Shown here one piece after another: positions 18,328-48,020 of a DNA stretch of 64,000 bases (position 1 is the stretch's first letter; every line of letters begins with the position of its first letter). A program made the position numbers and the translations under genes. This DNA is from Paraburkholderia sp. Tr-20389 (lineage in GTDB: Bacteria; Pseudomonadota; Gammaproteobacteria; Burkholderiales; Burkholderiaceae): contig NZ_JAAGPD010000001.1 in the NCBI RefSeq assembly GCF_017104565.1, positions 248,001 to 312,000 on the forward strand. The letters are read 5' to 3'. The notes below the pieces were generated by a model. That model was not told the DNA's origin. It saw nothing but the letters and a program-made list of their open reading frames with translations, and did no database searches.

Positions 18328-19179
18328 CTAGTCGGCAACAGGTTGCTCGGGACCCGCGTCCGTGAATAACGGTCTTACATCAAACGTCGAAATCCGCTTG
18401 CCGAGTTCGACGAGATTCACGCCTTCAGGCTTGCCGATCAGCGCGTAACCTAATTCTGCTTGCCGCCACATCGCGACGTCCAACGTATCAACCGTGTGCA
18501 CGGCCACGGGATGATCGGGCCGCGCATCTTTCATCACGCATAGCGTCACGGGCGGGCCGCTTTCCGGCAGATAGACGATCTGCAGCAGCGGCTTGTCGTT
18601 GAATCGCAGACGCTGCATCGCCTTGAAAGTGAGTCCCGCACTGCTCAGATCCGGAATACGCAACGGCAGGTGGTCCTGCTGACGTATGTCGCTGACGATC
18701 TTCCTGAGGGTCGCCGCGTCGTTCTTGACGTAGGCAACAGTCTCGCGAGTAAACAGCTTCTGATAACCTGCGGCAGCCGTCACCCACGGCGCAACATCCG
18801 GATTCGCGGCCGTTTGCGCGTCGCCGGCACCGGGCATGCCCTGACGCATCAACATGCCGCACGTAAAAGCGCCGGCGACGCACGCGGCTGCCAGCCATAG
18901 CGGAACGCCGCGGCGGACATCTGTCGGTTGATCGCGTGCATGCTGAGGCACTGCGCCATGTGCACGGATCAGCGCGTCAACGCCCAGTCTGAGCGAATCA
19001 GGCACGGGCGGCAGCGGCTGCGACGCGAACGCCGCCGCATAGTCGACCCGCGATGCGCGCAGCAGTTCGACTTTTGCCCGAGCGTCGGCCGACTGGCCCA
19101 ACCGGGCTTCCACCGCTTCACGTTCTTCGGGCGGCAGTTCGCCGTCTACATAGGCAAGAAGTTGAGCGTCGTCGATCAT
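18328..19179 (-). CDS. Transmembrane anti-sigma factor
   Basis: Protein of 283 residues. The N-terminal cytoplasmic sigma-binding region (MIDDAQLLAYVDGELPPEE...) lacks a full zinc-binding HxxxCxxC motif. One membrane helix lies at about 97-115 (LWLAAACVAGAFTCGML), followed by a 165-residue periplasmic domain of unknown fold with few cysteines. Its ATG overlaps the stop of the upstream ECF sigma gene by 4 bases, the usual arrangement for a sigma and its own inhibitor. Confidence 0.85.
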   Translation of the reverse strand: MIDDAQLLAYVDGELPPEEREAVEARLGQSADARAKVELLRASRVDYAAAFASQPLPPVPDSLRLGVDALIRAHGAVPQHARDQPTDVRRGVPLWLAAACVAGAFTCGMLMRQGMPGAGDAQTAANPDVAPWVTAAAGYQKLFTRETVAYVKNDAATLRKIVSDIRQQDHLPLRIPDLSSAGLTFKAMQRLRFNDKPLLQIVYLPESGPPVTLCVMKDARPDHPVAVHTVDTLDVAMWRQAELGYALIGKPEGVNLVELGKRISTFDVRPLFTDAGPEQPVAD

Positions 19180-19718
19180 GCGAGCGAATCCTTTTGCAGC
19201 CTCGTGGACTGCAGGTCCGCATCTTCGCCGATCATCGAACCGACGGCTTGCCGCGCTCGCGACAACCGGCTCATGACGGTACCCATTGGCACATCGAGCA
19301 CGTCGGCCGCCTCCCGATACGTCATGCCCTCGACCGCGACGAGCAGCATCACGACGCGCTGCACTTCGGGCAGACGCTCGATTGCGCCGATGATCTGCGC
19401 ATGCATGAGCTGCGTTTCGGGATCGTTGCCGGCGGGATCGGCGACATTTTCAAGGAAGTTCTGGTCCCATTCGAAGCTTGACTGCCTGCGCAGATTACGC
19501 GCCCGCAACTCGTTGAGCCACGTGGAATGAACGATCGAGAACATCCAGCTCAACGGAGCGGTGCCGGGTTGGAGTTGATGCGCACGCTCGAGCGCGCGCA
19601 GACACCCGCGCTGCACGAGATCCTCGGCGTCGTGCTGGTCGCCCGTCAGGCGAAGCGCGAACGCCCACAATCGCGGAAGCATCTCCGGAATCAGGTTAGA
19701 CAGGTCAGCATCGCTCAT
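19176..19718 (-). CDS. ECF-type RNA polymerase sigma factor
   Basis: Sigma factor of 180 residues. The start at 19718 gives standard ECF length; the ORF extends upstream without family similarity. Region 2 is LPRLWAFALRLTGDQHDAED plus LSWMFSIVHSTWLNELRAR. Region 4 is LPEVQRVVMLLVAVEGMTYREAADVL followed by MGTVMSRLSRAR. It is translationally coupled to its anti-sigma. Comparable pairs in Burkholderiaceae respond to oxidative or envelope stress, but the regulon cannot be read here. Confidence 0.92.
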   Translation of the reverse strand: MSDADLSNLIPEMLPRLWAFALRLTGDQHDAEDLVQRGCLRALERAHQLQPGTAPLSWMFSIVHSTWLNELRARNLRRQSSFEWDQNFLENVADPAGNDPETQLMHAQIIGAIERLPEVQRVVMLLVAVEGMTYREAADVLDVPMGTVMSRLSRARQAVGSMIGEDADLQSTRLQKDSLA

Positions 19719-20030
19719 CGAACGTAGCTCTCCATACCCATGTACGCGATGCCGCGCCGGGCATCCTGGATCTCTCGTTTCGTTTGCCATTGGCCGGGTT
19801 GGGCCACTCAGCGTGCCGCGACGCAAACAGAGCGGGCGGGCGCGCATGCATGCATTACAGCCAGGCGATGTATCTGGCGTGTGTCTGGAGAGGGACTATT
19901 TGCAAGCGTACGTAGCAATCGCATGCACCGATGCGATCAGAGAGGCGGGTCGATATCCCAGGATGTGGACTTATGGGGTGTTGCAGGGCAGACCTGCGGT
20001 GTCATCTGCCGTGCACATTCTTACTGTGCG
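19719..20030. other. 312-base intergenic region
   Basis: Holds the promoter of the sigma operon and the 3' end of the next minus-strand operon. No gene is supported. I could not define an ECF self-promoter with confidence. Confidence 0.35.
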
Positions 20031-20858
20031 TCAAGCGAGCGCTCGACTCGCGGCCTCAGCACGACCGCGCAGCCAGTTGATGCTGGCAAAAAGCAGTACC
20101 GCAAACACGATCAACATCGTCGCCACCGCAAGAATCGAAGGATCGATCGAATCGCGGATGCCGCTCCACATCTGCCGCGGCACCGTGGTTTGATCGGGGC
20201 CGCCGATGAAGAGAATGACGATCACCTCGTCGAACGAAGTCGCAAACGCAAACACGCTGCCCGTCGCGACGGCTGGCGCGATGAGCGGCAACGTCACGCG
20301 GCGAAATGCGACCCACGGCTTCGCGCCGAGTCCCGATGCGGCCCGTAGAAGGCTCTGATCGAATGAAAGCAGCGACGCAGTCACGGTGATGACGACGAAC
20401 GGCGTACCGAGCGCCGCGTGGGCCAGCACGACGCCGGGATATGAATTCACGAGGCCGAGCGGCGCGAAGATCAGATAGAAGCCTGCCGCCACGACCACGA
20501 TCGGCACGATCATCGGCGAAATGATGATCGGCATGATCAGCGAACGCAGCGGAAATTGCGACCGGCTCAGGCCCAGCGCCGCGAGCGTACCGAGCGCGGT
20601 CGCGATCAGCGTCGATGCCGCGCCGATACCGAGGCTGTTCAATAGCGCGCGCTGCCAGTCCGCGCTGGTGAGCGCCTGTTCGTACCAGCGCAGCGACAGG
20701 CCCTGCAACGGGTACGAAAAATACGAACCCGAATTGAACGAGAGCGGGATGATGGCGAGAATCGGCGCGATCAGAAAGAACAGCACGAGCGCCGTATGCA
20801 CGCGCACCCAGCGCGCCGCGATGCGTTCCGTCAGAACCCTTTTGCGTTGTTCCTGCAT
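20031..20858 (-). CDS. ABC transporter permease, PotC type (second system)
   Basis: Permease of 275 residues with helix 1 LVLFFLIAPILAIIPLSF, a FSYPLQGLSLRWYEQAL loop and the EAA motif LRAASGLGAKPWVAFRRVTLP. It is last in a minus-strand operon that starts with a Rieske oxygenase. Together with the preceding PotB-like subunit it forms the channel of a polyamine-class importer; cargo unknown. Confidence 0.88.
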   Translation of the reverse strand: MQEQRKRVLTERIAARWVRVHTALVLFFLIAPILAIIPLSFNSGSYFSYPLQGLSLRWYEQALTSADWQRALLNSLGIGAASTLIATALGTLAALGLSRSQFPLRSLIMPIIISPMIVPIVVVAAGFYLIFAPLGLVNSYPGVVLAHAALGTPFVVITVTASLLSFDQSLLRAASGLGAKPWVAFRRVTLPLIAPAVATGSVFAFATSFDEVIVILFIGGPDQTTVPRQMWSGIRDSIDPSILAVATMLIVFAVLLFASINWLRGRAEAASRALA

Positions 20859-20888
20859 GTCCGTCTCTCTGCGTCGGGTATGGGCGGC

Positions 20889-22154
20889 TCAACCGAAGCG
20901 CAAACGGTCGATGCCGACGATGCGGTTGAAGATGAAATAGAAGATCGCGGTGAAGATCACGAGATACGCCGACAACGCGCCTGCGAGGCCCCAATTGAGT
21001 TGCGTGTTCGTCTGCATCGCGATGAGCTGGCTGATCATCTCGTCGCCGGCGCCGCCGAGCAACGCGGGCGTGATGTAGTAACCAAGCGCGAGCACGAACA
21101 CGAGGAAGCAGCCCGCACCCACGCCGGGCAGCGTTTGCGGCACATAGACCCGCACGAATGCGATGAACGGATGCGCGCCGAGCGACTGCGCCGCTCGCAC
21201 ATAGACGGGCGGCACGCTTTTCATCACGGAGTAGATGGCGAGGATCATGTACGGCAGCAACACGTGCGTCATGCCGATCAACACGCCCGTGCGATTGAAG
21301 ATCAGCGGCAAAGGATGTGTCGCAAGTCCGAGTCCCGTCAGCAAACTGTTGACGACACCGGCGGGTTGCAGCAATACGTACCATGCCGTCGTGCGCACCA
21401 GCAGCGAGGTCCAGAACGGCACGATCACGAGCAGCATCAGGCGGTTGCTGCTTTTTGCCGGCAGACTGGCGAGCATCCATGCAACGGGATAGCCGAGCAG
21501 CAGGCACAGCAGCGTGACCGTCGCGCTGATCGAGATCGTGCGCAGGAACGCTTGCCGATAAACGGAAGCGTTATCGGGTACGAATCCGACCGAGCCTTGC
21601 GGCGTGACCTGCGCATCGACGGCGGCGAGCAGGTAGTCGGGTGTGGGCGATGCGGCGGCACGCTTCAGCAGACGCCACGTTTCCGGGGAATTCCAGCGTT
21701 CGTCGAGTTTCACGAGTGCGGGCTTCCAGGCGGGCGGTGGATCGGCGGGCAGGTTGCGGGCGGTACGCATCAACAGGCTGCGGAATTCGGCCTGGGCGAA
21801 GTTCAGACGACGTGCCACCGTGCCGAGTTGTCCGCTCTCCTGCGCCTGCTTCAGGCCCGACGCGAGCAGGGCGAACGTGTGCTCGTCCGGCATGCCGCGT
21901 CCGTCCCACGCATCGAGTGCCTGCGCGAGCGCTGGCATGCTGTCGGGCAGTTCGTGATTCTGCACGCTGCGCGCGAGCAGCAATGCAATCGGCGCGATGA
22001 ACGTCGACAGCAGAAACAGGATCAACGGCAGCGCGAGCAGCAGCGCCTGGGTCGATGCGCGGCGCCGTGCCTGGTGGAACGACGCGCGGCCGCCGGCTCG
22101 CGAAGGAGAGCCGGGAGCCGTGGTCTGGGCCGAAACGGGCATGCTGGTGGTCAC
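20889..22154 (-). CDS. ABC transporter permease, PotB type with large periplasmic insertion
   Basis: Permease of 421 residues, about 120 longer than the usual PotB. GTG start. After a basic N-terminus and helix 1 (ALLLALPLILFLLSTFIAPI), residues 65-215 form an extra hydrophilic domain with helical segments (LAQALDAWDGRGMPDEHTF..., AEFRSLLMRTARNLP). The remaining helices and EAA loop (RAAQSLGAHPFIAFVRVYVP) are standard. The insertion sits between helices 1 and 2 and is predicted periplasmic, where it may touch the binding protein. Confidence 0.88.
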   Translation of the reverse strand: MTTSMPVSAQTTAPGSPSRAGGRASFHQARRRASTQALLLALPLILFLLSTFIAPIALLLARSVQNHELPDSMPALAQALDAWDGRGMPDEHTFALLASGLKQAQESGQLGTVARRLNFAQAEFRSLLMRTARNLPADPPPAWKPALVKLDERWNSPETWRLLKRAAASPTPDYLLAAVDAQVTPQGSVGFVPDNASVYRQAFLRTISISATVTLLCLLLGYPVAWMLASLPAKSSNRLMLLVIVPFWTSLLVRTTAWYVLLQPAGVVNSLLTGLGLATHPLPLIFNRTGVLIGMTHVLLPYMILAIYSVMKSVPPVYVRAAQSLGAHPFIAFVRVYVPQTLPGVGAGCFLVFVLALGYYITPALLGGAGDEMISQLIAMQTNTQLNWGLAGALSAYLVIFTAIFYFIFNRIVGIDRLRFG

Positions 22155-22178
22155 GTCAGGCTCTCGCTCAACAGGAAG

Positions 22179-23234
22179 TTATTGCGTCAGCCATGTCTGG
22201 AAACGCTTGTTGATCTGGTCCGCGTTGTCGGCCCAGAAGCTCGCATTGATCTGCAACGCGCGCTTGAAGTTATCCGGCGATGTCGGAAGATCGGTCAGCC
22301 GCTGCTTGTCGACGAGCGCGATGGCATCCTTGCGCGGCGGCGCATAGGCGATGTACTTCGACAGATCGGCATAAGCTTTCGGCTGCGAAGCGGACACGAT
22401 GAACTTCGCCGCTGCGTCAGCATGCTTCGCGCCCGTCGGAATGCCCCACCAGTCGAAGTCGTAGACCTGTGCGTCCCACACTGCCTTGAAGGGCTTGTTG
22501 TCCTTCTTCGCGGCATCGTCGATGCGGCCGTTGTACGCCTGCGTCATCACCACTGCGCCGTCCGCGAGCAACTGCGGCGCCTGTGCGCCCGACTCCCACC
22601 AGACGATGCTCTTCTTGATCGTATCGAGCTTTTTGAAAGCGCGATCGACACCGGCGGGCGTGCCGAGCACCTTGTATACGTCCTTCGGATCGACACCGTC
22701 GGCGATCAACGCCCATTCCATCGATACCTTCGGCGACTTGCGCAGGCCGCGCTTGCCAGGGAATTTCTGCAAGTCGAAAAAGTCGGCGACAGTGGTCGGC
22801 GCCGTCTTCAGCTTGCTCGCATCGTAGGCGAAGACGGTCGACCAGACCATGCTCGCGACCGCGCAATCGCTGATCGAGCCGGGAATGAAATCACTCGTCT
22901 TGCCCAGCGTCTTCTTGTCGAACTTCTTCAAGAGACCTTCGTCGCATGCGGTGATCGCATCGTTCGTTTCGAGGTCGATCAGGTCCCACGTGGTGTTCTT
23001 TGCCTGCTCCATCGCGGAGAGTTTTGCGAGTCCCCCGTCGTACGATTCCGTCGAGAAGCCCACGCCCGTCGCTTGCGTGAACGGCTCGAAATAGGCTTTC
23101 TTCGCAGCTGCTTCATAAGCGCCGCCGAAGGTCACGACGGAAAGTGTCTCTGCTGCCCAGGCATTGGCCGTGGCGAAAGCGAAGACGGAAAGTGCGGCAA
23201 AGGCGGCACGTCGTGCCTTGATAGGGGTGCGCAT
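22179..23234 (-). CDS. PotD-type periplasmic binding protein
   Basis: Binding protein of 351 residues with a Sec signal (basic MRTPIKARR, hydrophobic AAFAALSVFAFATANA, cut after AWA). AGGAG precedes its ATG, and it begins 1 base after the ATPase stop. It has the COG0687 fold with VVTFGGAYEAAAKKAYFEPF at the start and WWGIPTGAKHADAAAKFI near the end. Aromatic and acidic residues (WWES, DFDWW) suggest a cationic ligand, as in polyamine and betaine binders; this is inference. Confidence 0.88.
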   Translation of the reverse strand: MRTPIKARRAAFAALSVFAFATANAWAAETLSVVTFGGAYEAAAKKAYFEPFTQATGVGFSTESYDGGLAKLSAMEQAKNTTWDLIDLETNDAITACDEGLLKKFDKKTLGKTSDFIPGSISDCAVASMVWSTVFAYDASKLKTAPTTVADFFDLQKFPGKRGLRKSPKVSMEWALIADGVDPKDVYKVLGTPAGVDRAFKKLDTIKKSIVWWESGAQAPQLLADGAVVMTQAYNGRIDDAAKKDNKPFKAVWDAQVYDFDWWGIPTGAKHADAAAKFIVSASQPKAYADLSKYIAYAPPRKDAIALVDKQRLTDLPTSPDNFKRALQINASFWADNADQINKRFQTWLTQ

Positions 23235-23235
23235 G

Positions 23236-24459
23236 TCAGTTGGCTCCTGCGGGTGCGGTCGTCATGATTGAAGGTAAGGGAGACGGCGAAGTACAGTTAG
23301 CTGGCGTGGCGTGCAGCGCGCCGGCTGTCACTGCGAGAATCTTGCAGTCGTCGTGGCGCCAGGCAACTTCGACTGTGTCGCCGGGCGACGGCAGCGCGTG
23401 ACGCTGCGTATTGGGAACCTTGACGACGATGGTGTCGCGCGAGCCGAGCTTGAGATGGACGCGATGATGATCGCCGCAATACACGAGTTCTTCGACACGC
23501 GCGCGCACCGCATTGCTGTTTTCGTCGACGTGCACGCCTTCGGCTGCGGGAATATGTGCGCGCTCGGGGCGCAGCGCGAGCATCGCGTGATCGCCCTCGC
23601 GCAAGCCGCTTTCGCAACGCCCGCGGATGATGCTTCCGTCTGCCAGCGCGAGGCTCGCGCCATCGCCGCGCACGTCGACGACGCGCCCCGTCAGTCCATT
23701 GTTCTCGCCGACGAAGTTCGCGACGAACGCATTTTGCGCATTTTCATAAAGCTCGCTCGGCGTCGCCGCCTGCTGGATGCGCCCATCCGAGAACACAGCG
23801 ACGCGGTCCGACATGGTCAGTGCTTCGGCCTGGTCGTGGGTCACATAGACGATCGTGAGCGAGAGTTCGCGATGCAGCCGCATGATTTCGTATTGCATCG
23901 TTTCGCGCAGGCGCTTGTCGAGCGCACCGAGCGGCTCGTCCATCAGCACGACGCTCGGCTCGAAGACGAGCGCGCGCGCCAGCGCAACACGCTGCTGCTG
24001 TCCGCCGGAGAGTTGTCCAGGACGGCGACTCGCGAGATGAGGCAATTCGATCATATCGAGCGCGCGTTTGACGCGCGCCTCCTGTTCAGCCCGGCTCACA
24101 TGACGCACGGAAAGTGGAAACGCAACGTTCTCCGCAATCGTCAGATGCGGGAACAGCGCATAGTTCTGGAACACCATGCCGATGTCGCGCTGATGCGGCG
24201 GCTTGTCGTCGAGCCGTTGTCCGTCGAGCCGGATCTCGCCTTGCGTGGGCGTTTCGAAACCGGCAAGCATCATGAGCGTCGTTGTCTTGCCGGAACCCGA
24301 CGGTCCGAGCAGCGACAGGAATTCGCCCTTGCGCACGTCGAGGTTCAGATCGTCGACGACATAGTGCGTGCCGTCATACGATTTGCTCACGCCCGAAAAC
24401 GAAATGTAGGAAGGGTTTGACATCGTGCTTGCGTCCTGTCGGTGTTGCGTCGAATTCAT
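23236..24459 (-). CDS. ABC transporter ATP-binding protein, PotA type (second system)
   Basis: ATPase of 407 residues. Walker A is GPSGSGKTTT, the signature is [15 protein letters not shown], Walker B is VVLMDEPLGALD and the switch is VTHDQAEA. A TOBE domain occupies the last 130 residues. The start overlaps the stop of the Rieske oxygenase by 4 bases; an alternative ATG lies 12 codons in (MSNPSYISF). The translational overlap ties transport directly to oxygenase synthesis. Confidence 0.9.
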   Translation of the reverse strand: MNSTQHRQDASTMSNPSYISFSGVSKSYDGTHYVVDDLNLDVRKGEFLSLLGPSGSGKTTTLMMLAGFETPTQGEIRLDGQRLDDKPPHQRDIGMVFQNYALFPHLTIAENVAFPLSVRHVSRAEQEARVKRALDMIELPHLASRRPGQLSGGQQQRVALARALVFEPSVVLMDEPLGALDKRLRETMQYEIMRLHRELSLTIVYVTHDQAEALTMSDRVAVFSDGRIQQAATPSELYENAQNAFVANFVGENNGLTGRVVDVRGDGASLALADGSIIRGRCESGLREGDHAMLALRPERAHIPAAEGVHVDENSNAVRARVEELVYCGDHHRVHLKLGSRDTIVVKVPNTQRHALPSPGDTVEVAWRHDDCKILAVTAGALHATPANCTSPSPLPSIMTTAPAGAN

Positions 24460-25604
24460 TGCGTGCGGAGTTTCGACGCGAGATAGCGCGCGAAGTCATA
24501 ATTGGGGCGTTCGAGATGGCTCAGATGGCCCGGCTTTGCAAGCGGTGCGTGCACGCCGCGAAATACCGCCTCGACGCCGCGCCGGTCTTCAGCATTGACT
24601 TCGTCGAGCAGCTTTTTCAGCGTGGCCATATGAGCCTGGGCTTGCGGATCGGCGATGAATTCCGGCGCCAGTCCGCCGCCGAAGCGGATATGCACGCGCC
24701 CCACACCTTGAGGCTGCAGCACGAGATACCAGAAGTAACCCGGCGTGAGCGTCACGAGATGAGTGGGATAGATCGCGAGCAAGGCTGTGGTCTTGCGCCA
24801 GTGTCCCGTGAGGCGTGTGTTGTCGGGATGCGCATTGCCGATCGGCAATGAGGCTTCCTTCGTGATCCAGTGATAGTTGAAGGCCGGTGAGCCCGGCGGG
24901 CATTCCATTTCCTCTAGCCGCGAATGCGGGCCTACCGTCGCGCGATGCAGCATCGGCAGGTGATAACTCTCCATGAAGTTCTCCGCGAGGATTTTCCAGT
25001 TCGTATCCCACACGTGCTCTTCATAGAATGTTTCGATGTAGTCGGACATGCCGTATGCGCCGATCAGCTCGCTCAACCCGGCAAGTTGCACACCGACGGA
25101 TGGCGCGCTGTCATCGAGCGTCACGTAGATCCAGCCTTGCCACGCTTCGCAGCGCACAGCGGGCAAGCGATAGCTTTCCTTGCAGAAGCCCTCTTGCCGG
25201 TCCATCAGCGGTGCGCCTTTCAGCGCGCCATCGAGCGAATAATTCCACGCATGGTACGGACACACGATCCTGCGCACGTTGCCGCGTCCTTCGAGCAACA
25301 CCGACATGCGATGCAGGCAGACGTTCGACATTGCCTTCAGCTGCATCTGTTCGTCGCGCAGCACGACGATCGGCTGGTCGCCGATGCGCGTAGTCAGGTA
25401 ATCGCCGGGCGCCTTCAGTGCGCTTGCGCGGCCGACGCACTGCCATTCGCGCGAGAAGATGTCGCGCTCTTCCAGGGCGAGAAATTCGGGGGACGTATAG
25501 ACGCCGGGCGGCATCGCGCGCGCTTCGCCGAATGACCGTTCACAACCGGTCTGCAGCTCGTCGACAAGCGCTTGCACTGTAATCGTCCTTGCCGGATTTG
25601 CCAT
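24456..25604 (-). CDS. Rieske non-heme iron oxygenase, alpha subunit
   Basis: Oxygenase of 382 residues. The Rieske [2Fe-2S] ligands are C96-x-H98 and C115-x2-H118. The mononuclear iron site shows ENFMESYHLPMLH (E212, H215, H220). Length and layout match the branch that includes choline/glycine-betaine, carnitine and stachydrine monooxygenases and other N-demethylating oxygenases, rather than naphthalene-type dioxygenases. No reductase or ferredoxin gene lies in the operon, so electrons must come from elsewhere. It is first gene of the operon with a PotABCD-like importer, so it probably attacks the imported compound. Confidence 0.9.
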   Translation of the reverse strand: MANPARTITVQALVDELQTGCERSFGEARAMPPGVYTSPEFLALEERDIFSREWQCVGRASALKAPGDYLTTRIGDQPIVVLRDEQMQLKAMSNVCLHRMSVLLEGRGNVRRIVCPYHAWNYSLDGALKGAPLMDRQEGFCKESYRLPAVRCEAWQGWIYVTLDDSAPSVGVQLAGLSELIGAYGMSDYIETFYEEHVWDTNWKILAENFMESYHLPMLHRATVGPHSRLEEMECPPGSPAFNYHWITKEASLPIGNAHPDNTRLTGHWRKTTALLAIYPTHLVTLTPGYFWYLVLQPQGVGRVHIRFGGGLAPEFIADPQAQAHMATLKKLLDEVNAEDRRGVEAVFRGVHAPLAKPGHLSHLERPNYDFARYLASKLRTQ

Positions 25605-25805
25605 GCCGCCCTCCCTGTTCCGAGCTTGCGAGAGCGCGCCGACGCTGGATTGCGCGGCATTGCGCTCGACATGGACATCAATCTATCAAGCCAAATTCCC
25701 AGCCAAAATATTGTTTTTGGATGCAAGGCAAAGGTTTTGGCTATGCAGTGCGGTTGCTGCTAGCGGCAGCTTCCTGCCGTTGCCGTCGATGTTTGAAACG
25801 GTGCC

Positions 25806-26732
25806 TCACGTATCCAGATGCAGCCGCCGGATATAGGTTTCGCAGAACGACGCGAAGCGATGCACCACTTGCCGTGGCCGCATCGTGCGCGATTGCGCGA
25901 TGCCGAGCGTCGTCGCGTTGACGTTGTCCTTGAAGCGTTTGATGACGAAGTCCGCGCCGTCGACGGTGCGATTGGACTTGAGCGGAAAGTTGAGGATGCT
26001 GTAGCCAAGTCCGTTCGCCACCATGCCGCGCACGACTTCCGGCTGTGACGAGCGGAAAGCGGGTACGGGCCTGCTGCCCACGGCATCGAACAACGCTGCG
26101 AAGTACTCGCGGCTATGCGGTAAATCCAGCATCACATAGGGCTCGTGCAACAGGTCGGCGAGCGACACCTTGCGCGCGCGGGCGAGGCGATGAGATGCCG
26201 GCAGGATCACATAAGGCGGCAACGACAGCAGCGGCGTGAAGGCGATGTCCTCGGTGAGGTCGAGGCTATAGGTCAGGACTATGTCGAGCGAGCCGTCGTG
26301 CAGGCCTCGCAGCAGACCGTCCTGATGTGCTTCGACCGTGCGGAACGAGATGCCCGCATGTTCGCTCGCGAAACGGCTGATGAGCCGCGGCATCAGCGGC
26401 GGCGCAAGCGACACGAGGCAGCCGAGCGCGATCGAGCCCGTCATGCCGCCGTCCATTTCCTTGGCGGTCATCTGCAGTTCTTCCGCGATTTTCAGCAGAT
26501 TGCGCGCCTGTCCGAGCAGATCGCGCCCTGCCTGTGTGAGCGACAGACCGCTCGCGTGATGCCTGATGAAGAGCTGCACGCCGAACGACGATTCGAGGTC
26601 TGCCAGCGCGGTGGAGATGGATGGCTGCGAGATATGAAGGCGCTTGGCGGCAGCCGTGAAGGACAGTGCTTCAGCGGTGACGACGAAATAACGCAACTGA
26701 CGAAGCGAGTAACGCAGGGGATGGTTTTCCAT
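25806..26732 (-). CDS. LysR family transcriptional regulator
   Basis: Regulator of 308 residues; the ATG at 26732 follows GGAG with good spacing. The helix-turn-helix is LRYFVVTAEALSFTAAAKRL then ISQPSISTALADLE. The ligand domain has GSIALGCLVSLAPPLMPRLI. It sits between the Rieske-ABC operon (same strand, 201 bases on) and the divergent flavin monooxygenase operon, a good position to control both. Confidence 0.9.
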   Translation of the reverse strand: MENHPLRYSLRQLRYFVVTAEALSFTAAAKRLHISQPSISTALADLESSFGVQLFIRHHASGLSLTQAGRDLLGQARNLLKIAEELQMTAKEMDGGMTGSIALGCLVSLAPPLMPRLISRFASEHAGISFRTVEAHQDGLLRGLHDGSLDIVLTYSLDLTEDIAFTPLLSLPPYVILPASHRLARARKVSLADLLHEPYVMLDLPHSREYFAALFDAVGSRPVPAFRSSQPEVVRGMVANGLGYSILNFPLKSNRTVDGADFVIKRFKDNVNATTLGIAQSRTMRPRQVVHRFASFCETYIRRLHLDT

Positions 26733-26972
26733 CGGCAATGCTCCATGTTCGGGCGTTCATGCGCACCATTGTGAGTCGGTCAAAATCCCTTGCATAGGTA
26801 AAACCGATGCCATGCATTTTTTAAATATATTTTTCGGATTCGAAGGGCACGCGTAGATTCTGGACCTGGACAGCTGATTCACGGCGCAGCGCGCCGATCG
26901 AAACGTCGCTTCGCCCATTGGGTGCGAGGTCATGACGGCTTGGATCAAACCGCCTTTGAGAAGGACTTGGAC

Positions 26973-28310
26973 ATGGCAGGGAAAACGATGTCAATCGATA
27001 CGCTCGTGGTCGGCGCCGGGCAGGCCGGCGTGGCGATGAGCGAACACTTGAGCAAGATCGGCGTGCCTCATGTCGTTCTGGAACGGGCTCGTATCGCCGA
27101 GCAGTGGCGCACGGGACGCTGGGATTCGCTGGTCGCGAATGGTCCCGCGTGGCACGATCGCTTTCCGAATCTGGAATTCGCGGAAGTCGATCCGGATGGC
27201 TTCGCGGCGAAAGAGCAGGTGGCGGATTACTTCGTCGAGTACGCGAAGCGGTTCGACGCGCCGATCCGCACGGGCGTCGATGTGAAGAAGGTGGTGCGCA
27301 ATGCGGGCCGTCAGGGCTTTACCGTCGAGACGTCGGACGGCACGTTCGAAGCCAACCGGGTCGTCGTGGCGACGGGCCCGTTCCAGCGCCCGGTCATTCC
27401 GGCCGTTGCACCGAAGTCGGACCGCTTCACGCAGATTCACTCGGCCGACTATCGCAATCCGCAGCAACTGCCTGATGGCAACGTGCTGGTCGTCGGAGCG
27501 GGCTCGTCCGGCGTACAGATCGCGGACGAACTGCAGCGCGCGGGCAGGCAGGTGTATCTGTCGGTCGGACCGCATGACCGGCCGCCGCGCGCCTATCGCG
27601 GCCGCGACTTCTGCTGGTGGCTCGGCGTGCTCGGCGAATGGGATGCCGAAGTGATGCGGCCCGGCAAGGAACACGTGACGATTGCGGTGAGCGGGGCACG
27701 CGGCGGACATACCGTCGACTTCCGCCGTCTCGCGCATCAAGGTGTGATGCTGGCCGGTTTGACGAAGTCATTCGACGACACCGTCGTGACGTTCGATGCC
27801 GATCTCGCTGAAAACATCGCACGCGGTGACGAGAACTATCTGTCGCTGCTGGATGCCGCGGATGCGTACGCCGCGCGCAACGGCCTCACGCTTCCTGAAG
27901 AACCCGAAGCGCGCGTCATTCCCGCCGATCCGGACTGTCTGATCAATCCTGTTCTCGAACTCGATCTGGTCAAGGCCGGTGTGACGTCGATCATCTGGGC
28001 GACCGGCTATGCAGTCGATTTCGGCTGGTTGCACGTCGATGCCTTCGACGAGAAGGGCAAGCCGAAGCATCAGCGCGGCGTGTCGAAAGAGCCGGGCATT
28101 TATTTCCTTGGGCTTCCCTGGCTGTCGCGGCGCGGCTCGGCTTTCATCTGGGGCGTATGGCACGACGCGAAACATATCGCCGATCACATCGCCACGCAGC
28201 GCAAGTATCTCGCTTACTACGATGCGCCGAATCCGCACGCACCGACCCAACACGAGGCGCGCGCGACGGAGCCGCAGCTTCGCAAGGTCAGCGAAATGGA
28301 CCTGAGCTGA
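26973..28310 (+). CDS. FAD-dependent monooxygenase, YUCCA/CzcO-like
   Basis: Flavoprotein of 445 residues. The FAD Rossmann motif is GAGQAGVAMSEHL at about 11-23, with ERARIAEQWRTGRWDSL after it, and the NADPH motif is GAGSSGVQIADEL. It ends with ATGYAVDFGWL, the C-terminal FAD/NADP-linking strand. Such enzymes insert one oxygen into ketones, amines or thiols (Baeyer-Villiger or N-oxygenation). The ATG at 26973 has AAGGA upstream; 26988 is an alternative. First gene of a plus-strand operon running to the NCS1 permease. Confidence 0.9.
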   Translation: MAGKTMSIDTLVVGAGQAGVAMSEHLSKIGVPHVVLERARIAEQWRTGRWDSLVANGPAWHDRFPNLEFAEVDPDGFAAKEQVADYFVEYAKRFDAPIRTGVDVKKVVRNAGRQGFTVETSDGTFEANRVVVATGPFQRPVIPAVAPKSDRFTQIHSADYRNPQQLPDGNVLVVGAGSSGVQIADELQRAGRQVYLSVGPHDRPPRAYRGRDFCWWLGVLGEWDAEVMRPGKEHVTIAVSGARGGHTVDFRRLAHQGVMLAGLTKSFDDTVVTFDADLAENIARGDENYLSLLDAADAYAARNGLTLPEEPEARVIPADPDCLINPVLELDLVKAGVTSIIWATGYAVDFGWLHVDAFDEKGKPKHQRGVSKEPGIYFLGLPWLSRRGSAFIWGVWHDAKHIADHIATQRKYLAYYDAPNPHAPTQHEARATEPQLRKVSEMDLS

Positions 28311-28360
28311 CGCCCGCCAACAGAGCCGCATTCTTCTTTTATCCGTATCAAGGTGCATCG

Positions 28361-28798
28361 ATGAGCCAACCTACGCATACCCGTATTCGCATGTTCAACA
28401 CGAAGGACACGTACCCGAACCAGTCGCTCGATAACGATCTCTGTCAGGCAGTACGTGCCGGCAACACAGTCTACGTGCGCGGCCAGGTGGGCACCGATTT
28501 CGATGGTCGCCTCGTCGGGCTCGGCGATCCGCGCGCGCAGGCCGAGCAGGCGATGAAGAACGTCAAGCAGCTCCTCGAAGAAGCGGGCAGCGACCTCTCG
28601 CACGTCGTCAAGACGACCACGTTTCTCACCGACATCCGCTATCGCGAGCCTGTGTATCAGGAAGTCGGCAAGTGGTTCAAGGGTGTGTTCCCGATCTCGA
28701 CGGGCCTCGTGGTGACGGCTCTGGGGCAGGCGCAATGGCTGATGGAAATCGACGTGATCGCAGTCATTCCGGATGGCTGGACGCCTGCTAAGGCGTGA
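28361..28798 (+). CDS. RidA/Rid family protein
   Basis: Protein of 145 residues of the YjgF/YER057c/UK114 fold, trimeric in known members. The Rid core is visible: VRAGNTVYVRGQVGTD, MKNVKQLLEEAGSDLSHVVKTTTFLTDI, and the end MEIDVIAVIP. The catalytic Arg of RidA proper (in the C(S/T)R region) is not obvious, so it fits a Rid1-7 subgroup rather than housekeeping RidA. These hydrolyse enamines/imines or aminoacrylate-like products. It lies 50 bases after the flavin monooxygenase and is analogous in context to RutC. Confidence 0.88.
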   Translation: MSQPTHTRIRMFNTKDTYPNQSLDNDLCQAVRAGNTVYVRGQVGTDFDGRLVGLGDPRAQAEQAMKNVKQLLEEAGSDLSHVVKTTTFLTDIRYREPVYQEVGKWFKGVFPISTGLVVTALGQAQWLMEIDVIAVIPDGWTPAKA

Positions 28799-28808
28799 GG
28801 AGCACGAC

Positions 28809-29486
28809 ATGACGTTTTCAATCGTCGGACGTTGCGCGCAGACGGGGCAACTCGGCATCGCGATCAGTTCTTCGAGCATCGCGGTAGGCGCGCGCTGTCC
28901 GTGGCTGCGCGCGGGTGTCGGTGCAGTCGCGACGCAGAACGTGACGCTGCCCGCACTCGGTCCGCAGGTTCTCGATCTGCTGGAGAATGCGCTGCTCGAG
29001 CCCGCTGCCGCGCTGGACCGTGCGCTCAGTGCAAACGAATGGAGCGAGTATCGGCAGGTGACGGTGGTCGATGCGCTTGGGCGCACCGCGTTTTTCAGCG
29101 GCAAGGAAGCGCTGGGCACATATCACGCAGCAGCGGGCAAGCAATGCGTCGCAGCAGGCAACATGCTGGCGAGCGTGGGCGTGATCGAGGCGATGGTGCC
29201 CGCTTTCGAGAACACGAAGGGCATGCTCGCCGACCGGCTGCTCGCAGCGATGCACGCCGCGATCGCAGCAGGCGGCGAAGCGGGGCCGGTGCACTCGGCG
29301 GCGCTGAAGATCGTCGGCGATCTGAGCTGGCCGATCGTCGACTTGCGCGTCGATTGGGCCGACGAGGATCCGATCGGCCGGCTCGACGGTCTATGGCAAG
29401 CGTATAAGCCGCAAATGCAGGACTACGTGACGCGCGCGCTCAATCCCACGGCCGCGCCGAGCTATGGAGTGCCGGGCGATGAGTGA
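28809..29486 (+). CDS. DUF1028 family protein, Ntn-hydrolase-like
   Basis: Protein of 225 residues. It starts MTFSIVGRCAQTGQLGIAISS, then SSIAVGARCPW, and GAVATQNVTLP, the conserved DUF1028 pattern; the family is predicted to adopt an N-terminal-nucleophile amidohydrolase fold. Biochemical role unknown. It begins 10 bases after the Rid gene and overlaps the deacetylase by 8 bases, so it is an integral operon member. An amide-bond hydrolysis step is inferred from fold and context. Confidence 0.88.
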   Translation: MTFSIVGRCAQTGQLGIAISSSSIAVGARCPWLRAGVGAVATQNVTLPALGPQVLDLLENALLEPAAALDRALSANEWSEYRQVTVVDALGRTAFFSGKEALGTYHAAAGKQCVAAGNMLASVGVIEAMVPAFENTKGMLADRLLAAMHAAIAAGGEAGPVHSAALKIVGDLSWPIVDLRVDWADEDPIGRLDGLWQAYKPQMQDYVTRALNPTAAPSYGVPGDE

Positions 29487-30648
29487 CACGTCGAGCCGCG
29501 CGTTGCTCGAACGGCTGATCGCATTTCCCACGGTGAGCCGGGACTCGAATCTGGCGATGATCGATTTCATCCGCCATTACCTCGGTAATCTCGGCGTTCG
29601 AAGCGAACTGTTTTACAACGCCGAGCGCACGAAGGCGAACCTGTTCGCGACGATCGGCCCCGACATCGGCGGCGGCATCGTGCTGTCGGGGCATACCGAC
29701 GTAGTGCCCGTCGATGGTCAGCCCTGGACTGTCGAGCCGTTCCGGCTGAGCGAGAAAGAAGGGCGGCTGTATGGGCGCGGCACGGCCGACATGAAAGGCT
29801 TCATCGCTTCCGTATTGGCGACGGTGCCCGCTTTCGTCGCACGCGAACTGAAGGTACCCGTGCATCTCGCGTTTTCGTACGACGAGGAAGTGGGGTGTCT
29901 GGGTGTGCGGTCGATGCTGGCAGACCTGGCGCAGCGCGCAAATAAACCTGCGCTGTGTCTCATCGGCGAACCGACGGAACTGAAGCCTGTGCTGGGTCAC
30001 AAAGGCAAGCTGGCGATGCGTTGCCACGTCAAGGGAGCGCCTTGTCATTCGGCGTACGCGCCGTACGGCGTCAACGCGATTCAATATGCGGCGCGTCTCG
30101 TCAATCGTCTTGAAGAGATCGGCGAACGGCTGGCGGCGCCCGAGCGCCACGACGAACGATTCGATCCGCCGTATTCGACGGTGCAAACAGGTGTGATCAA
30201 AGGCGGTCGCGCGCTGAACATCGTGCCCGCCGAATGCGAATTCGATTTCGAAGTGCGAGCGCTGCCGGGCTACGACGCAACCCATGTCGCCGACGAATTG
30301 CAGACCTATGCGCAGGCCCAGTTGCTGCCGAAGATGCATGCGGTGAACGCCGAAACGGACATCCGCCTGACCTCGCTTTCGGCGTATCCCGGACTCGCGA
30401 CGCCGCCAGACAGCGACGCGGCACGATTGCTCGCGCTGTTGTGCGGTTCGAATACGTTCGGCACGGTGGCGTTCGGCACTGAGGGTGGGCTCTTCAACGA
30501 AGCCGGCATTCCCGCCGTGGTCTGCGGGCCGGGCAGCATGGACCAGGGGCATAAGCCCGACGAATTCGTGACAGTCGATCAACTCGCGGAATGCGATGCG
30601 ATGTTGGCGCGACTGGCCGATTACCTCTCGACGCCATCCGGATCGTGA
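29479..30648 (+). CDS. M20 family metallopeptidase, ArgE-like acetylornithine deacetylase
   Basis: Zinc amidohydrolase of 389 residues. Metal motifs are LSGHTDVVPV, GRGTADMKGF and SYDEEVGCLG (catalytic Glu pair), then FGTEGGLF and the late His in PGSMDQGHKPDEFV. This matches ArgE and related N-acyl amino acid deacetylases. In this operon it is unlikely to serve arginine synthesis and may remove a formyl, acetyl or carbamoyl group from a pathway intermediate. The start used overlaps the DUF1028 stop; 29464 is an alternative. Confidence 0.9.
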   Translation: MSDTSSRALLERLIAFPTVSRDSNLAMIDFIRHYLGNLGVRSELFYNAERTKANLFATIGPDIGGGIVLSGHTDVVPVDGQPWTVEPFRLSEKEGRLYGRGTADMKGFIASVLATVPAFVARELKVPVHLAFSYDEEVGCLGVRSMLADLAQRANKPALCLIGEPTELKPVLGHKGKLAMRCHVKGAPCHSAYAPYGVNAIQYAARLVNRLEEIGERLAAPERHDERFDPPYSTVQTGVIKGGRALNIVPAECEFDFEVRALPGYDATHVADELQTYAQAQLLPKMHAVNAETDIRLTSLSAYPGLATPPDSDAARLLALLCGSNTFGTVAFGTEGGLFNEAGIPAVVCGPGSMDQGHKPDEFVTVDQLAECDAMLARLADYLSTPSGS

Positions 30649-30759
30649 TTCGACGTTCCGGATGTGCCGTCCGACATGAACGCAAGCAACCAGCGTGCTC
30701 AGGCAAAGCTCGAGCCGCAGAATAGCGCAGCACAGCTGCGCGAGACAGGAGACAGCATC

Positions 30760-32175
30760 GTGGCCACCACGGATCGTAACGCTTCCCAGCTGATCGAAAA
30801 ACACACGATTGGCTATGTGCCACCAGAAGATCGTCACGGCAAGGTCCGTGACCTGTTCACCCTCTGGTTCGGCGGCAATATCGCGCCGTTGCCTATCGTC
30901 ACGGGCGCGCTCGGCGTTCAGCTTTTTCACCTGAACCTGATGTGGGGCATCGTCGCGATCGTCGTGGGGCAGGCGGTCGGCGGTGTGCTGATGGCGCTCC
31001 ATTCCGCTCAAGGCCCGCAAATGGGCATTCCGCAGATGATCCAGAGCCGCGCTCAATTCGGTTCATGGGGTGCGCTTCTCGTCACGGTGATCGCGGGTGT
31101 GATGTACGTGGGCTTCTTTGCATCCAACATCGTGCTGGCGGGGAAATCGCTGCACGGAATCGAATCGAATGTTTCCGTGCATGCGGGCATCGTGGTCGGT
31201 GCGTTGGGGTCCGGCCTGATCGGCATCATCGGCTATCGCTTCATTCATATCCTGAATCGCATTGGCACATGGGTGCTCGGTATCGGCATCTTCATCGGTT
31301 TCGGCTACATCCTGACGCACGTCTCGACAGCGGATTTTCTGACGCGCGGCGGCTTCAACTTTGCCGGGTGGCTTGCGACGGTCTCGCTGTCCGCGCTGTG
31401 GCAAATTGCATTTGCGCCCTACGTGTCCGACTATTCGCGCTATCTGCCCGAAGACGTCAGCGTTGCGTCGACTTTCTGGGCCACGTATCTCGGCTGCGCG
31501 ATCGGCTCGACGCTCGCCTTCGTATTCGGCGCGGTGGCGGTGCTCGCGGTGCCGCCGGGCGTCGATGCGATGGACGCCGTCAAGCAGGCGACGGGCCCGC
31601 TCGGACTGCCGATGCTCGTGCTGTTTCTGCTCAGCGTCATCAGCCACAACGCGTTGAATCTGTATGGCGCGGTGCTCGCGTCGATCACCTCGGTGCAGAC
31701 GTTTGCCTGGCGCTGGATTCCGACGGCCAGAACGCGTGCAGTGTTCTCGCTCGTGATCCTCGCGGGATGCTGTTACGCGGCGCTCGGCGCATCGACCAAC
31801 TTCGTGGGCAATCTGGTCGATCTGGTGCTGGCCCTGCTGGTCGTGCTCGTGCCGTGGACGGCGATCAATCTGATCGACTTTTACGTCATCCACAAAGGGA
31901 ACTACGACATCGATTCGATTTTTCAGGCGGATGGCGGAAGATATGGCCGCTTCAATCCTCAGGCCCTCATTGCATACGCGGTGGGTATCGCCGTGCAGAT
32001 TCCGTTCATGAACACGCCGATGTACGCCGGGCCTGTGCCGGGTTATCTGGATGGCGCGGATCTCTCGTGGGTGATCGGTCTGGTGCTGACTTCGCCGCTG
32101 TACTACTGGCTGGCGACGCGCGATTCGACCTATCGGCGCCGGCTCAATTCGGGGCTGAGCGCGACGGCCCGATAG
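30760..32175 (+). CDS. NCS1 family nucleobase/cation symporter, CodB-like
   Basis: Twelve-helix permease of about 471 residues. The GTG at 30760 has AGGAGA seven bases upstream and gives normal length; in-frame starts at 30664 and 30676 add a polar tail. It has LWFGGNIAPLPIVTGALGVQL, the GxxxxxxxSAQGPQMGIPQMIQSRAQFG signature region beginning at about residue 80, and a typical NCS1 end. Family members import cytosine, allantoin, hydantoins, uracil or thiamine with H+ or Na+. As last gene of the operon it suggests a small heterocyclic or ureide substrate or intermediate. Confidence 0.88.
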   Translation: MATTDRNASQLIEKHTIGYVPPEDRHGKVRDLFTLWFGGNIAPLPIVTGALGVQLFHLNLMWGIVAIVVGQAVGGVLMALHSAQGPQMGIPQMIQSRAQFGSWGALLVTVIAGVMYVGFFASNIVLAGKSLHGIESNVSVHAGIVVGALGSGLIGIIGYRFIHILNRIGTWVLGIGIFIGFGYILTHVSTADFLTRGGFNFAGWLATVSLSALWQIAFAPYVSDYSRYLPEDVSVASTFWATYLGCAIGSTLAFVFGAVAVLAVPPGVDAMDAVKQATGPLGLPMLVLFLLSVISHNALNLYGAVLASITSVQTFAWRWIPTARTRAVFSLVILAGCCYAALGASTNFVGNLVDLVLALLVVLVPWTAINLIDFYVIHKGNYDIDSIFQADGGRYGRFNPQALIAYAVGIAVQIPFMNTPMYAGPVPGYLDGADLSWVIGLVLTSPLYYWLATRDSTYRRRLNSGLSATAR

Positions 32176-32237: not shown

Positions 32238-33179
32238 CTAGGGAATCTGCGACAGATTTCGCTTCGCCTCAAGCAACTCGATCAGCAATTGATCGCGCTG
32301 ACAAAGCATTTCCGTGAAATCGTACGGCGCGAGTTCGGCATCGACACCCTTCGCAATCGAGTCGATGTAGTCGTCGTTCTCGGGATAGCGGCCCAGATCT
32401 TTGGCCCATTCGCGCTGGGCCGGACCCAGGTGCTGCAGCACATGCGTGACCCCGCCGGGGCCGCCCGAAGCGTGAAGGTTGAGGAACGGCCCCAACAGCG
32501 CCCAGCGCAGGCCGGGACCATAGGCGATGGCGGCGTCGATGGCCTCCACCGACGCGACGCCTCGCTGTACCAGGCTGATGGCTTCCTGCCAGAGGGCCAC
32601 CTGCAGCCGGTTGGCAATATGGCCTTTGACCTCCTTGTCGATCCTGATGGGTTTCTTGCCTGTCGCCGCGTAAAACGTCATGGCCTTCGCGACGTTTTCG
32701 GGCGAGGTCAGGCGACCGCCGCCGACTTCGACTAGCGGAATGATGTGCGACGGATTGAACGGATGCCCGAGGACGATGCGCTCCGGATGCCGTGCGCCCA
32801 CTTGCATCTCGCTGACCGATAGCCCCGACGATGACGACGCGATGATCGCATCTGCCTCCGCAGCGGATTCGATGTCCGCTATCAACGCGTGCTTGACGGC
32901 AAGACGTTCGGGGCCGCTTTCCTGAATGAAGTCGGCATGCCGCACGGCAGTGCCGACGTCGGTCGTGAAGGTCAGGTTCTCTCGTGAAGCGCCGTTTGCC
33001 AGACCAAGTCTCTCGACGGCAGACCAACTATTGTCGATCCACTCACGCAACCGCGATTCGGCGCCGTCTGCGGGGTCTGTCGCCGTGACCGCGAATCCTT
33101 GTGCCAGAAAATGCGTGGCCCAGCCTGCGCCGATCACGCCCGTTCCGACGATCGCCACCTTGACGGCGCCCTCGCTCAT
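32238..33179 (-). CDS. 3-hydroxyacyl-CoA dehydrogenase family protein, L-carnitine dehydrogenase-like
   Basis: NAD-dependent dehydrogenase of 313 residues. The NAD motif is [13 protein letters not shown]; then [29 protein letters not shown], and the conserved [15 protein letters not shown]. The C-terminal helical domain follows. The layout is that of the single-domain L-carnitine dehydrogenases (the Sinorhizobium form carries a fused thioesterase, absent here), but related enzymes oxidise gulonate or other beta-hydroxy acids. It overlaps the downstream BKACE gene by 4 bases, which supports a beta-hydroxy to beta-keto to cleavage route. Confidence 0.82.
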
Positions 33180-34102
33180 GACTGCGCTTCCAGGCTGGCC
33201 GCGCGCTTCGCTTCGCGCAAAGGCCGCAGTCCGATGATCTCCCGAGCCTCGTCGGGCGTGGCCGGCTCATAGCCCATTTCGCGGACGAGTCGCACGAGTC
33301 GCTCGACCAGTTGCACGTTGGTCGCCAGTTCGCCGTGGCGGTAATACAGATTGTCTTCGAGCCCGACGCGCACATGGCCGCCCAGCAGCAGCGAATTCAT
33401 CGCGGCGGGCAACTGCGCCGCGCCGATCGCGCTCACGTTGAAGACGGTGTTGCGAGGCAGGTGATCGACCATCGTCTGCAACAGACGCGGCGTGTAAGGC
33501 AATGCGCCCTGGAACGCATTGGCGCCGATGACGATATTGATGAAGTGAGGCGCGTCATCAAGCCCCTCGTTGATCGCTCGCTGCACGTCCTGAACGATGT
33601 CGGCGAGACCGAACACTTCCCACTCCGGCTTGATGCCGCGCGCCTTCATCATTTCGGCAATCTGCCGGATACGCGAAGGCGGGGTCGCCACCAGAATCTC
33701 CTTGCCGCCGAAGCTCGCGATCACCGTTTGCGCATCGAGCGTGCACATCTCGACGCCATCGCCTTGCATGCCCTTCAGGCGTTCTTCCCACTGAATCTCC
33801 CACAGCCCGTTGTCGAGTTCGCGAACCATGTCGCCGTCGATGCCGCCGCCCGTGGAATTGTTGAGGATGATGTCGCACCGGTCGCGAATCAGCCGGTTGA
33901 TGTGGCTGTAAATCGCGGGATCACACGTGGCCTGATCGTCGGGACGCCGTGCGTGCACCGCGACCACACTCGCGCCGGCGTTGTAGCAGCGGTAGGTGTC
34001 GTCGGCGATTTCCTGCGGTTGCGTCGGCAGGGCCGGGTTCATTTTCTTGGTGGCCATGCCGCCCGTCGGGGCGACGGTCACGATGACTTTGGGCTTGCTC
34101 AT
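33176..34102 (-). CDS. BKACE (DUF849) family protein with altered zinc site
   Basis: Protein of 308 residues in the beta-keto acid cleavage enzyme family, which condenses a beta-keto acid with acetyl-CoA to give acetoacetate and a new CoA ester. Family features are [12 protein letters not shown] at the start, [21 protein letters not shown] and [11 protein letters not shown], which supplies the conserved Glu. The zinc motif normally HxH reads A48-V-H50, so one His ligand is Ala, and the usual Asp two residues on is Arg. Activity may be changed. Neighbours suggest dehydrocarnitine or another beta-keto acid. Confidence 0.82.
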
Positions 34103-34156
34103 GATGGTGTTCTCCAGGAGATGGAATAGATCGGAAACGGGGTGGAGGCGGCGCGA

Positions 34157-35515: not shown

Positions 35516-35694
35516 TGCGTGTCTCCTGAGTTGTATGACACGCATTATTTCGGGCGCCCGCGCAAACCACTGTCGATCGGACGACAGTTGCGGTCAGGGC
35601 AAACGCCAGGTCGCGGCGAGACCGGCCGGGTCGATGCCGCATCGCTAGCCGATTCGATGTCCGGGTAAGAGGAGGCGAGCGACCGGAAGCGGAC

Positions 35695-36399
35695 CTACTG
35701 CGCGAGCGCTTGCAGCCCCGGCAGATCCAGCACGACGAGGCCGCCATATTCGGTCCGCACGAGGCCGGCGTCCTTGAAATGCATCATGGCCTTGTTGCAC
35801 GTCTGGCGGGACACGGCAGCGAGGTTGGCGAGTTCCTCCTGCGACAGTTGCAGATACCGCTCGCCGCGCGGATTCGGCAGCGGATGCACCATGCCGACCA
35901 GCGCTCTCGCCACGAGGCTGTCGGTGTCGAGCAGCCCGTACGCGGCGACATTGCCCATGAACCAGTGCAGGCGTTCGTTCACCTGCATCAGCAGGAATTC
36001 ATTAAACGACGGCTGGTGGCTGCGCAGCCAGTCGAAGGTGGCGAGCGGAATCTGCGCGACGCGGCTGTCGCGCAGCGCGATGAGGTCGGACTGGCGGGGC
36101 GCCTTGCGAATCAGCGTGCCTTCCCCGAACCAGCTTCCCGCCAGTTGTCCGCCAAGCGTGACCGTGCGGCCGTCGTGCGCGGTGATCGACCATTTGATCA
36201 GACCTTCGAGCACCCCGAACCATACGTGCTGCCGATCGCCGTGGCGGCCAAGGAACTGTCCCATGCCGACGGCGCGTTCCGATATGTCGGCGCGCACCTG
36301 GCGCTGCGCGGATTCGTCGAGCGACGTGAACCAGAGCGACTGAGCCAGCAACTCGTCGAGCGTGAGCGACAGGGCAGCCGTGCGTATGGGGCGAGTCAT
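35695..36399 (-). CDS. Crp/Fnr family transcriptional regulator
   Basis: Regulator of 234 residues. The N-terminal cyclic-nucleotide-binding fold (residues 20-135) lacks the Arg-Ser cAMP motif of Crp and the Fe-S cysteines of Fnr. The C-terminal winged helix is LSQEELANLAAVSRQTCNKAMMHF. It lies upstream of the MFS operon on the same strand and divergent from the thioesterase gene, so either may be its target. Confidence 0.88.
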   Translation of the reverse strand: MTRPIRTAALSLTLDELLAQSLWFTSLDESAQRQVRADISERAVGMGQFLGRHGDRQHVWFGVLEGLIKWSITAHDGRTVTLGGQLAGSWFGEGTLIRKAPRQSDLIALRDSRVAQIPLATFDWLRSHQPSFNEFLLMQVNERLHWFMGNVAAYGLLDTDSLVARALVGMVHPLPNPRGERYLQLSQEELANLAAVSRQTCNKAMMHFKDAGLVRTEYGGLVVLDLPGLQALAQ

Positions 36400-36510
36400 C
36401 CTCGTCTCCTGACTGTTACGTGCGAATACCGGCGCCGACTGTCGCCGGATTGACAGATTCGCCCGCTCGACACCGGAATAATGGTTGCATTGGAACTGGA
36501 GTGTAGGCTC

Positions 36511-36924: not shown

Positions 36925-36958
36925 TCCGTGATGGCATGGCTGATACAAAGGAGCTTCC

Positions 36959-43361: not shown

Positions 43362-43378
43362 TGGAACGGGGATACAGC

Positions 43379-48007: not shown

Positions 48008-48020
48008 CGGGAGCACGGCC

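Follow-up and report, generated by a model that had tools for sequence, protein, structure and literature searches.

What does a bacterium degrade when a regulatory gene separates a Rieske oxygenase and an importer from a compact run of hydrolytic enzymes? The question is raised by 64,000 nucleotides of the 9.0 Mb genome of Paraburkholderia sp. Tr-20389 (contig NZ_JAAGPD010000001.1, positions 248,001 to 312,000; the whole stretch is here called the window, with positions counted from its first letter). On one side of a LysR gene lies an operon for a Rieske oxygenase and an ABC importer, and on the other a divergent operon for an FAD monooxygenase (FMO), a Rid protein, a DUF1028 protein, an M20 deacylase and an NCS1 permease. 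An initial annotation had regarded the two as one undescribed catabolic unit, and every gene that it named, LysR included, was confirmed in family and strand (list of open reading frames, Pfam and NCBIfam profiles). We consider it reasonably probable that the unit degrades imidazole compounds via imidazole-4-acetic acid (ImAA), with one half of hin type, a Rieske and importer front end for an N-methylated imidazole, and a common HinK-like control.

The divergent operon and the hin genes

The hinFLHG genes of Pseudomonas putida U (protein accessions AWA45227-45230 in PMC6467879) and P. aeruginosa PAO1 convert ImAA to aspartate; HinF is given as an FAD monooxygenase (EC 1.14.13.5), HinL as an enamine deaminase, HinH as an amidase and HinG as an amidase (EC 3.5.1.8) (PMC8231116; PMC6467879, table 3). 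The plus-strand operon of the window encodes these four enzyme classes in matching order, followed by the permease, with gaps of at most 50 bases if the likely starts are used: the FMO (26973..28310), a HinF-like candidate imidazoleacetate monooxygenase; the HinL-like Rid/enamine deaminase (28361..28798; PF01042); the DUF1028 protein (28809..29486; PF06267, 230 bits), a putative HinH-like amidase standing third in the F-L-H-G order; the ArgE-like, HinG-like M20 deacylase (29479..30648); and, as an accessory, the NCS1 permease (30664..32175; PF02133). The FMO scored 377 bits against TIGR04046, below its cut-off of 498, and the M20 protein scored above the cut-offs of both PRK07522 (581 bits) and TIGR01892 (acetylornithine deacetylase, 415 bits). 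Based on enzyme class and gene order, the operon looks like a hinFLHG-type operon for the ImAA-to-aspartate half of histamine catabolism. This half is an already known pathway, and for these four genes the description "undescribed" is not borne out, given their match to published hinFLHG. The idea of a single catabolic unit combining oxygenation, enamine hydrolysis and amide cleavage on a cyclic nitrogen compound is upheld. We found no paper on DUF1028 in the literature searched.

Blocks of hin type also lie on plasmids of Klebsiella variicola, K. aerogenes, Pantoea, Acetobacter, Rhizobium and Mycolicibacterium (L256, L259, L258, L257, L260 and L261, respectively), and no Rieske gene was listed in these six stretches, the gene tables of which are incomplete. 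Identities of the window proteins to their counterparts there were 68–72% for the FMO, 54–90% for Rid, 48–68% for DUF1028, 43–61% for M20 (none listed for Mycolicibacterium), 35–39% for LysR and 44–50% for NCS1, the Klebsiella and Pantoea loci giving 69–72% for the FMO and 88–90% for Rid. The K. variicola block neighbors genes for NCS1, a GMC oxidoreductase and an aldehyde dehydrogenase, and that of K. aerogenes genes for a class III aminotransferase, an aldehyde dehydrogenase, NCS1 and LysR. The Tr-20389 genome encodes counterparts of two of the K. aerogenes proteins, ~4 kb apart: the aminotransferase, at 61%, and the aldehyde dehydrogenase, at 49%. Among 30 DUF1028 regions from the family of genome G355 (Rhodobacteraceae-like by resemblance to named plasmids), Rid was found in 27, the FMO in 21 and an HpaB-family monooxygenase in two, and in 15 a histamine-dehydrogenase-like protein lay at most 9 kb from DUF1028; among solved proteins it matches histamine dehydrogenase 6de6 best (1262 bits, against 502 for trimethylamine dehydrogenase). 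A hin-type FMO was also present in 105 Klebsiella and seven Escherichia plasmid records, and the use of histamine or imidazoleacetate may thus be a mobile trait; the reading covered three Enterobacterales records.

The LysR protein, the putative operator and the conservation of the set

The LysR protein (25806..26738, minus strand) has as its best solved relatives 6m5f and 3fzv, at 213 bits and thus 124 bits ahead of the next (89 bits), both of which we take to be HinK. HinK belongs to the LysR regulators; its signal is ImAA and its targets include the promoters of hinD and hinF (PMC8231116), and a T-N11-A box has been described for it (PMC10912698). A search of the 64 kb with the pattern TGCATAGNNAAAACCNNTGCCNTGCAT (27 bases, 22 fixed), allowing up to 3 mismatches, gave two sites, both with 0 mismatches (0.00 expected in shuffles), at 25721..25747 on the minus strand upstream of the Rieske operon and at 26791..26817 on the plus strand upstream of the FMO operon, each oriented toward its operon. 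The best 27-mer shared by the two promoter regions had 22 identities, where 150 shuffles gave no more than 19, and the FMO-side site holds the dyad GCATAGG-N5-CCGATGC, of T-N11-A form. In the Burkholderiales set the FMO-side site retained at least 18 of the 22 bases in 63/64 loci and the Rieske-side site at least 19 in 47/77, being weak in part of that set; the pattern was derived from the window, and the loci scored are related. The LysR protein is probably a HinK-like, ImAA-sensing regulator of both operons, and the shared regulation that the initial annotation had staked its single unit on would act through the same putative operator, seen in front of each.

A scan of genome contigs with the Rieske gene gave 79 loci from the best 80 of 144 matches, nearly all in Burkholderiales, to which four plasmid loci were added (83 in total). 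Counting a gene as present at ≥35% identity over at least a quarter of the query, we found LysR in 80, Rid and DUF1028 in 77 each, M20 in 68 and the FMO in 67, along with the importer ATPase in 80, its solute-binding protein (SBP) in 79 and its permeases in 78 and 77. Several absences fell at contig ends and others belonged to a variant without the FMO, while NCS1 was the least conserved member (25/83). Paraburkholderia xenovorans LB400 is among the carriers of the cluster (L032). Of four Rhodobacterales plasmid records read, three carried a six-gene core of FMO, Rieske, Rid, DUF1028, LysR and M20 together; the fourth (L111) had Rieske genes and an amino-acid-type importer, with no DUF1028 listed. 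With 72 further genome regions, 155 loci were scored (at most 154 distinct, as L183 duplicates L089 in having the same Rieske protein), and all six core genes, the monooxygenase being either type, were found in 85, 77 with the FMO and 8 with HpaB. In most loci, then, the genes travel together, and the scattering of single genes that the initial annotation had named as a refutation is not what is seen. A close Rieske gene was present in 7/398 genomes of a phylum sample (Tr-20389 included), in 62/248 of the family of G355 and in 5/240 of the class of G445.

The variant concerns a Caballeronia sordidicola-like group and some other genomes, in which an HpaB-family monooxygenase occupies the position of the missing FMO. 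Among 110 loci with DUF1028 and Rid, 90 had the FMO, 15 had HpaB (14 without the duplicate), none had both and five had neither. In 11 HpaB-type contig loci, Rid and DUF1028 were 49–64% identical to those of the window where found, and M20 (found in 5/11) 44–51%, compared with 74–85% for LysR, the Rieske protein and the importer. The HpaB gene was seen at L089:6650-8344 and in 16 other loci, never with the FMO in the 155 loci, counts that include L089/L183 once too often. HpaB is likely a second solution for imidazoleacetate oxygenation.

The Rieske oxygenase and its importer

The minus-strand genes run in the order LysR, Rieske, ATPase, SBP, PotB-like permease and PotC-like permease. The gene of the Rieske oxygenase, here R1 (24456..25604; PF00355 and PF00848), overlaps that of the PotA-subfamily ATPase (23236..24459) by 4 bases and is followed by the genes of the periplasmic SBP (22179..23234), the PotB-like permease (20889..22154; 421 residues with a long N-terminal part) and the PotC-like permease (20031..20858). 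Only the ATPase scored above a subfamily cut-off (TIGR01187, 370.1 bits against 355.6); the SBP, of the SBP_bac_8 family (PF13416, 193 bits), reached just 31 bits against PotD (cut-off 582) and so does not count as the PotD/PotF type of polyamine importers, and the permeases (both PF00528) reached 167.6 bits against PotB (cut-off 348) and 165 bits against PotC (cut-off 326).

In an alignment of 153 R1 sequences (the window and 152 loci, one of them a duplicate, three of the 155 having been dropped for length), the Rieske pairs C96/H98 and C115/H118, the His-His-Asp site H215, H220 and D340, and the bridging glutamate E212, to which that of CntA aligns, are all invariant. The predicted model (pLDDT 93.1) is nearest in fold to quaternary-ammonium monooxygenases; ranks 1–18 are all taken by CntA, 3n0q or stachydrine demethylase (with 3vca), at 21–24% identity, and CntA is also the best solved sequence match (123.8 bits). 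Group V Rieske enzymes are described in PMC10952381 as carrying two cysteines next to the iron (Cys206/Cys209 in CntA); R1 has Ser213 (149/153) and Leu216 (153/153) there. Judged by sequence and modeled fold, R1 is a relative of the Group V quaternary-ammonium Rieske monooxygenases and is not filed here as a member. It is at most 92% identical to Rieske proteins of Paraburkholderia plasmids.

R1 has companions at some loci: a second Rieske protein of the same motif class occurs in 29 of 189 (9–71 bases from R1 in eight), a PhyH dioxygenase in 21 (its gene being the next one past the importer in 10/11 HpaB-type contig loci and in L109) and a GbcB/PaaE-like reductase in nine. Several oxygenases in series before ImAA would fit the removal of more than one N-methyl group. 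Zooanemonin, a marine betaine, is 1,3-dimethylimidazolium-4-acetate, and methylimidazoleacetate is the mammalian end product of histamine. A tentative, rather doubtful proposal is that R1 and the second Rieske or PhyH of other strains form a demethylation cascade for one or both of these, yielding ImAA for HinFLHG. The literature searched, which left most subscription papers outside, held no description of the Rieske and PotABCD-type importer half, and no paper joining methylimidazoleacetate or methylhistamine with zooanemonin or Rieske was among the matches listed. Near the Rieske gene one also meets repeatedly (L156, L167, L168, L171, L181) an aminotransferase-like protein and a gamma-glutamylation enzyme that resembles glutamine synthetase.

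Is R1 tied to the hin-type genes at the level of whole genomes? Among 35 genomes of the same genus, all 16 with the Rieske gene (matched in two pieces in one, G020) carry DUF1028 no more than 5 kb away from it on that contig, against DUF1028 of any kind in 10 of the 19 without it (Fisher p=0.0015). In the family of G355, hin-type DUF1028 was found in 57/62 Rieske genomes (in one more the gene is broken up by contig ends, and four lack it), against 4/18 of the Rieske-free genomes tested, which stood at the head of a list of 186 that gave no match (p=1.7e-8); the genomes are related, so that both p-values overstate independence. As the hin pathway is found without the Rieske gene, and the Rieske gene seldom without the pathway, R1 appears to be an add-on feeding the pathway, and our best reading of these gene distributions is that the Rieske-importer half would be a peripheral module in front of it.

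Proposed working, rival explanations and known systems

In the working that we infer from gene content, order, co-occurrence, the operator and fold class, the PotABCD-type importer would take up an N-methylated imidazole of cationic or betaine-like nature, and R1, by itself or, in other strains, together with a second oxygenase, would strip N-methyl groups to give ImAA, with electrons from a donor encoded elsewhere in the genome. The FMO (HinF) would then oxygenate ImAA, Rid (HinL) would assist the hydrolysis of the opened imine or enamine, and amide and formyl groups would be cleaved by the DUF1028 protein (HinH) and by the M20 enzyme (HinG) to yield aspartate and formate, while ImAA would induce both operons by way of the LysR protein at the operator. 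The window also encodes an anthranilate 1,2-dioxygenase large subunit and AntC reductase (46131-49049, both above cut-off); AntC is a possible candidate for the electron donor.

A number of observations weigh against this proposal. The hin assignment was made by class and order; the identification of the DUF1028 protein as HinH rests on position and elimination, and NCBIfam places the M20 protein over the equivalog cut-off for acetylornithine deacetylase, a name other than HinG. In 108 loci (L150-L261), mostly of alphaproteobacteria, the best match to the operator dyad was 13/14 in six (0/108 shuffled) and 12/14 in 28 (18 shuffled), giving no clear separation outside Burkholderiales. The N-methyl substrate of the Rieske half is itself inferred. 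R1 departs from the Group V cysteine pair, neither operon has a reductase gene, and the Tr-20389 genome has no second Rieske gene; its single PhyH is encoded on a different contig and resembles the PhyH of L033 at 90% and that of L109 at 43%. Four Rieske-free genomes of the G355 family do have hin-type DUF1028, with a distant DUF1028 alone in two more, and in 34 of the 72 further loci R1 has neither DUF1028 nor Rid in its stretch (of the 29 tested, 25 have DUF1028 elsewhere in the genome and four have none).

R1 could instead act by C–N cleavage, as CntA does on carnitine, and turn histamine or an N-alkylated histamine into imidazole acetaldehyde and an amine, replacing the HinC aminotransferase; CntA is the nearest match in both sequence and fold, the importer is polyamine-type and no hinC or hinD lies alongside in the window. 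We nevertheless regard this as improbable, since, of the 15 regions in which hin genes have a histamine-dehydrogenase-like neighbor, 12 come from Rieske-bearing genomes, where the step is thus not replaced, the operon has no aldehyde dehydrogenase, and the genome has its own K. aerogenes-like aminotransferase and aldehyde dehydrogenase, as given above. Slightly less probable still is that the Rieske-importer half serves an unrelated compound and came under the regulator of the hin operon by historical accident; the 34 loci just mentioned and the missing cysteine pair speak for this, but genome-level dependence holds even where the genes are unlinked (the family counts above) and also within the genus, and one group exchanged its hin block for the HpaB version while R1, LysR and the importer stayed closely alike.

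Homarine (N-methylpicolinate) was also considered, as the homarine operon of a 2026 study reportedly comprises five enzymes and a regulator; hin order and classes set this reading back. That the five enzymes and LysR gene are this operon is very improbable, for while a conserved homarine pathway has been published for environmental bacteria (Nat Microbiol 2026, cited in PMC13390433) and the gene set is present in marine Rhodobacterales, the four core enzymes match hinFLHG in class and order and adjoin histamine-type genes. The homarine passages of PMC12817926, PMC9723723 and PMC9038784 named no genes for its catabolism. A carnitine link was also rejected: the carnitine dehydrogenase-, BKACE- and thioesterase-like genes at 32238-34102 and 36481-36924 adjoin the unit in 0/83 loci.

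Among neighboring genes, the window encodes an L-carnitine dehydrogenase-like protein (297 bits, cut-off 414), a BKACE protein, a CRP-like regulator, a 4HBT thioesterase and an SDR protein at 32238-37732. A class III aminotransferase adjoins a gamma-glutamyltransferase at 41991-44971, and just past the importer operon (18328-19847) are an ECF sigma factor and a weakly matched zinc-finger anti-sigma-like protein.

The proposal that the unit works on imidazoles via ImAA places a set of "function unknown" (DUF1028, Rid, M20, FMO) on a published pathway that is also plasmid-borne in several bacterial groups, and narrows the question to a conserved Rieske clade and importer dependent on the hin pathway, for which methylated imidazoles make a short list of candidate substrates. 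It also points to a way in which methylated products of histamine may be put to use by soil and marine bacteria; were the cascade real, bacteria would have a route for methylated histamine metabolites that is new to us, run by a new clade of Rieske N-demethylases. The initial annotation's "methylated cyclic nitrogen compound" was a fair guess for the Rieske substrate, while its list of candidates missed imidazoleacetate.

Three known systems invite comparison. The Rut pyrimidine pathway, to which the unit had been likened, shares an oxygenase, Rid, hydrolases and a transporter, and this resemblance of parts stands; the closer parallel does not, as the RutC model scored 32.5 bits against a cut-off of 169.1 and the window operons hold other enzyme families. 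CntA and the stachydrine demethylase Stc2 are nearest to R1 in fold, with the bridging glutamate in common and CntA the nearest solved sequence, yet R1 differs by its low identity in the fold alignments, its Ser/Leu in place of the Cys pair and its link to imidazole catabolism. Pseudomonas hinFLHG with HinK has the FAD monooxygenase, the enamine deaminase and two amidases in the same order plus a LysR regulator, whereas in the window the regulator gene sits between the hin-type and Rieske-importer operons, no hinA, hinC or hinD lies alongside, and an NCS1 permease gene follows.

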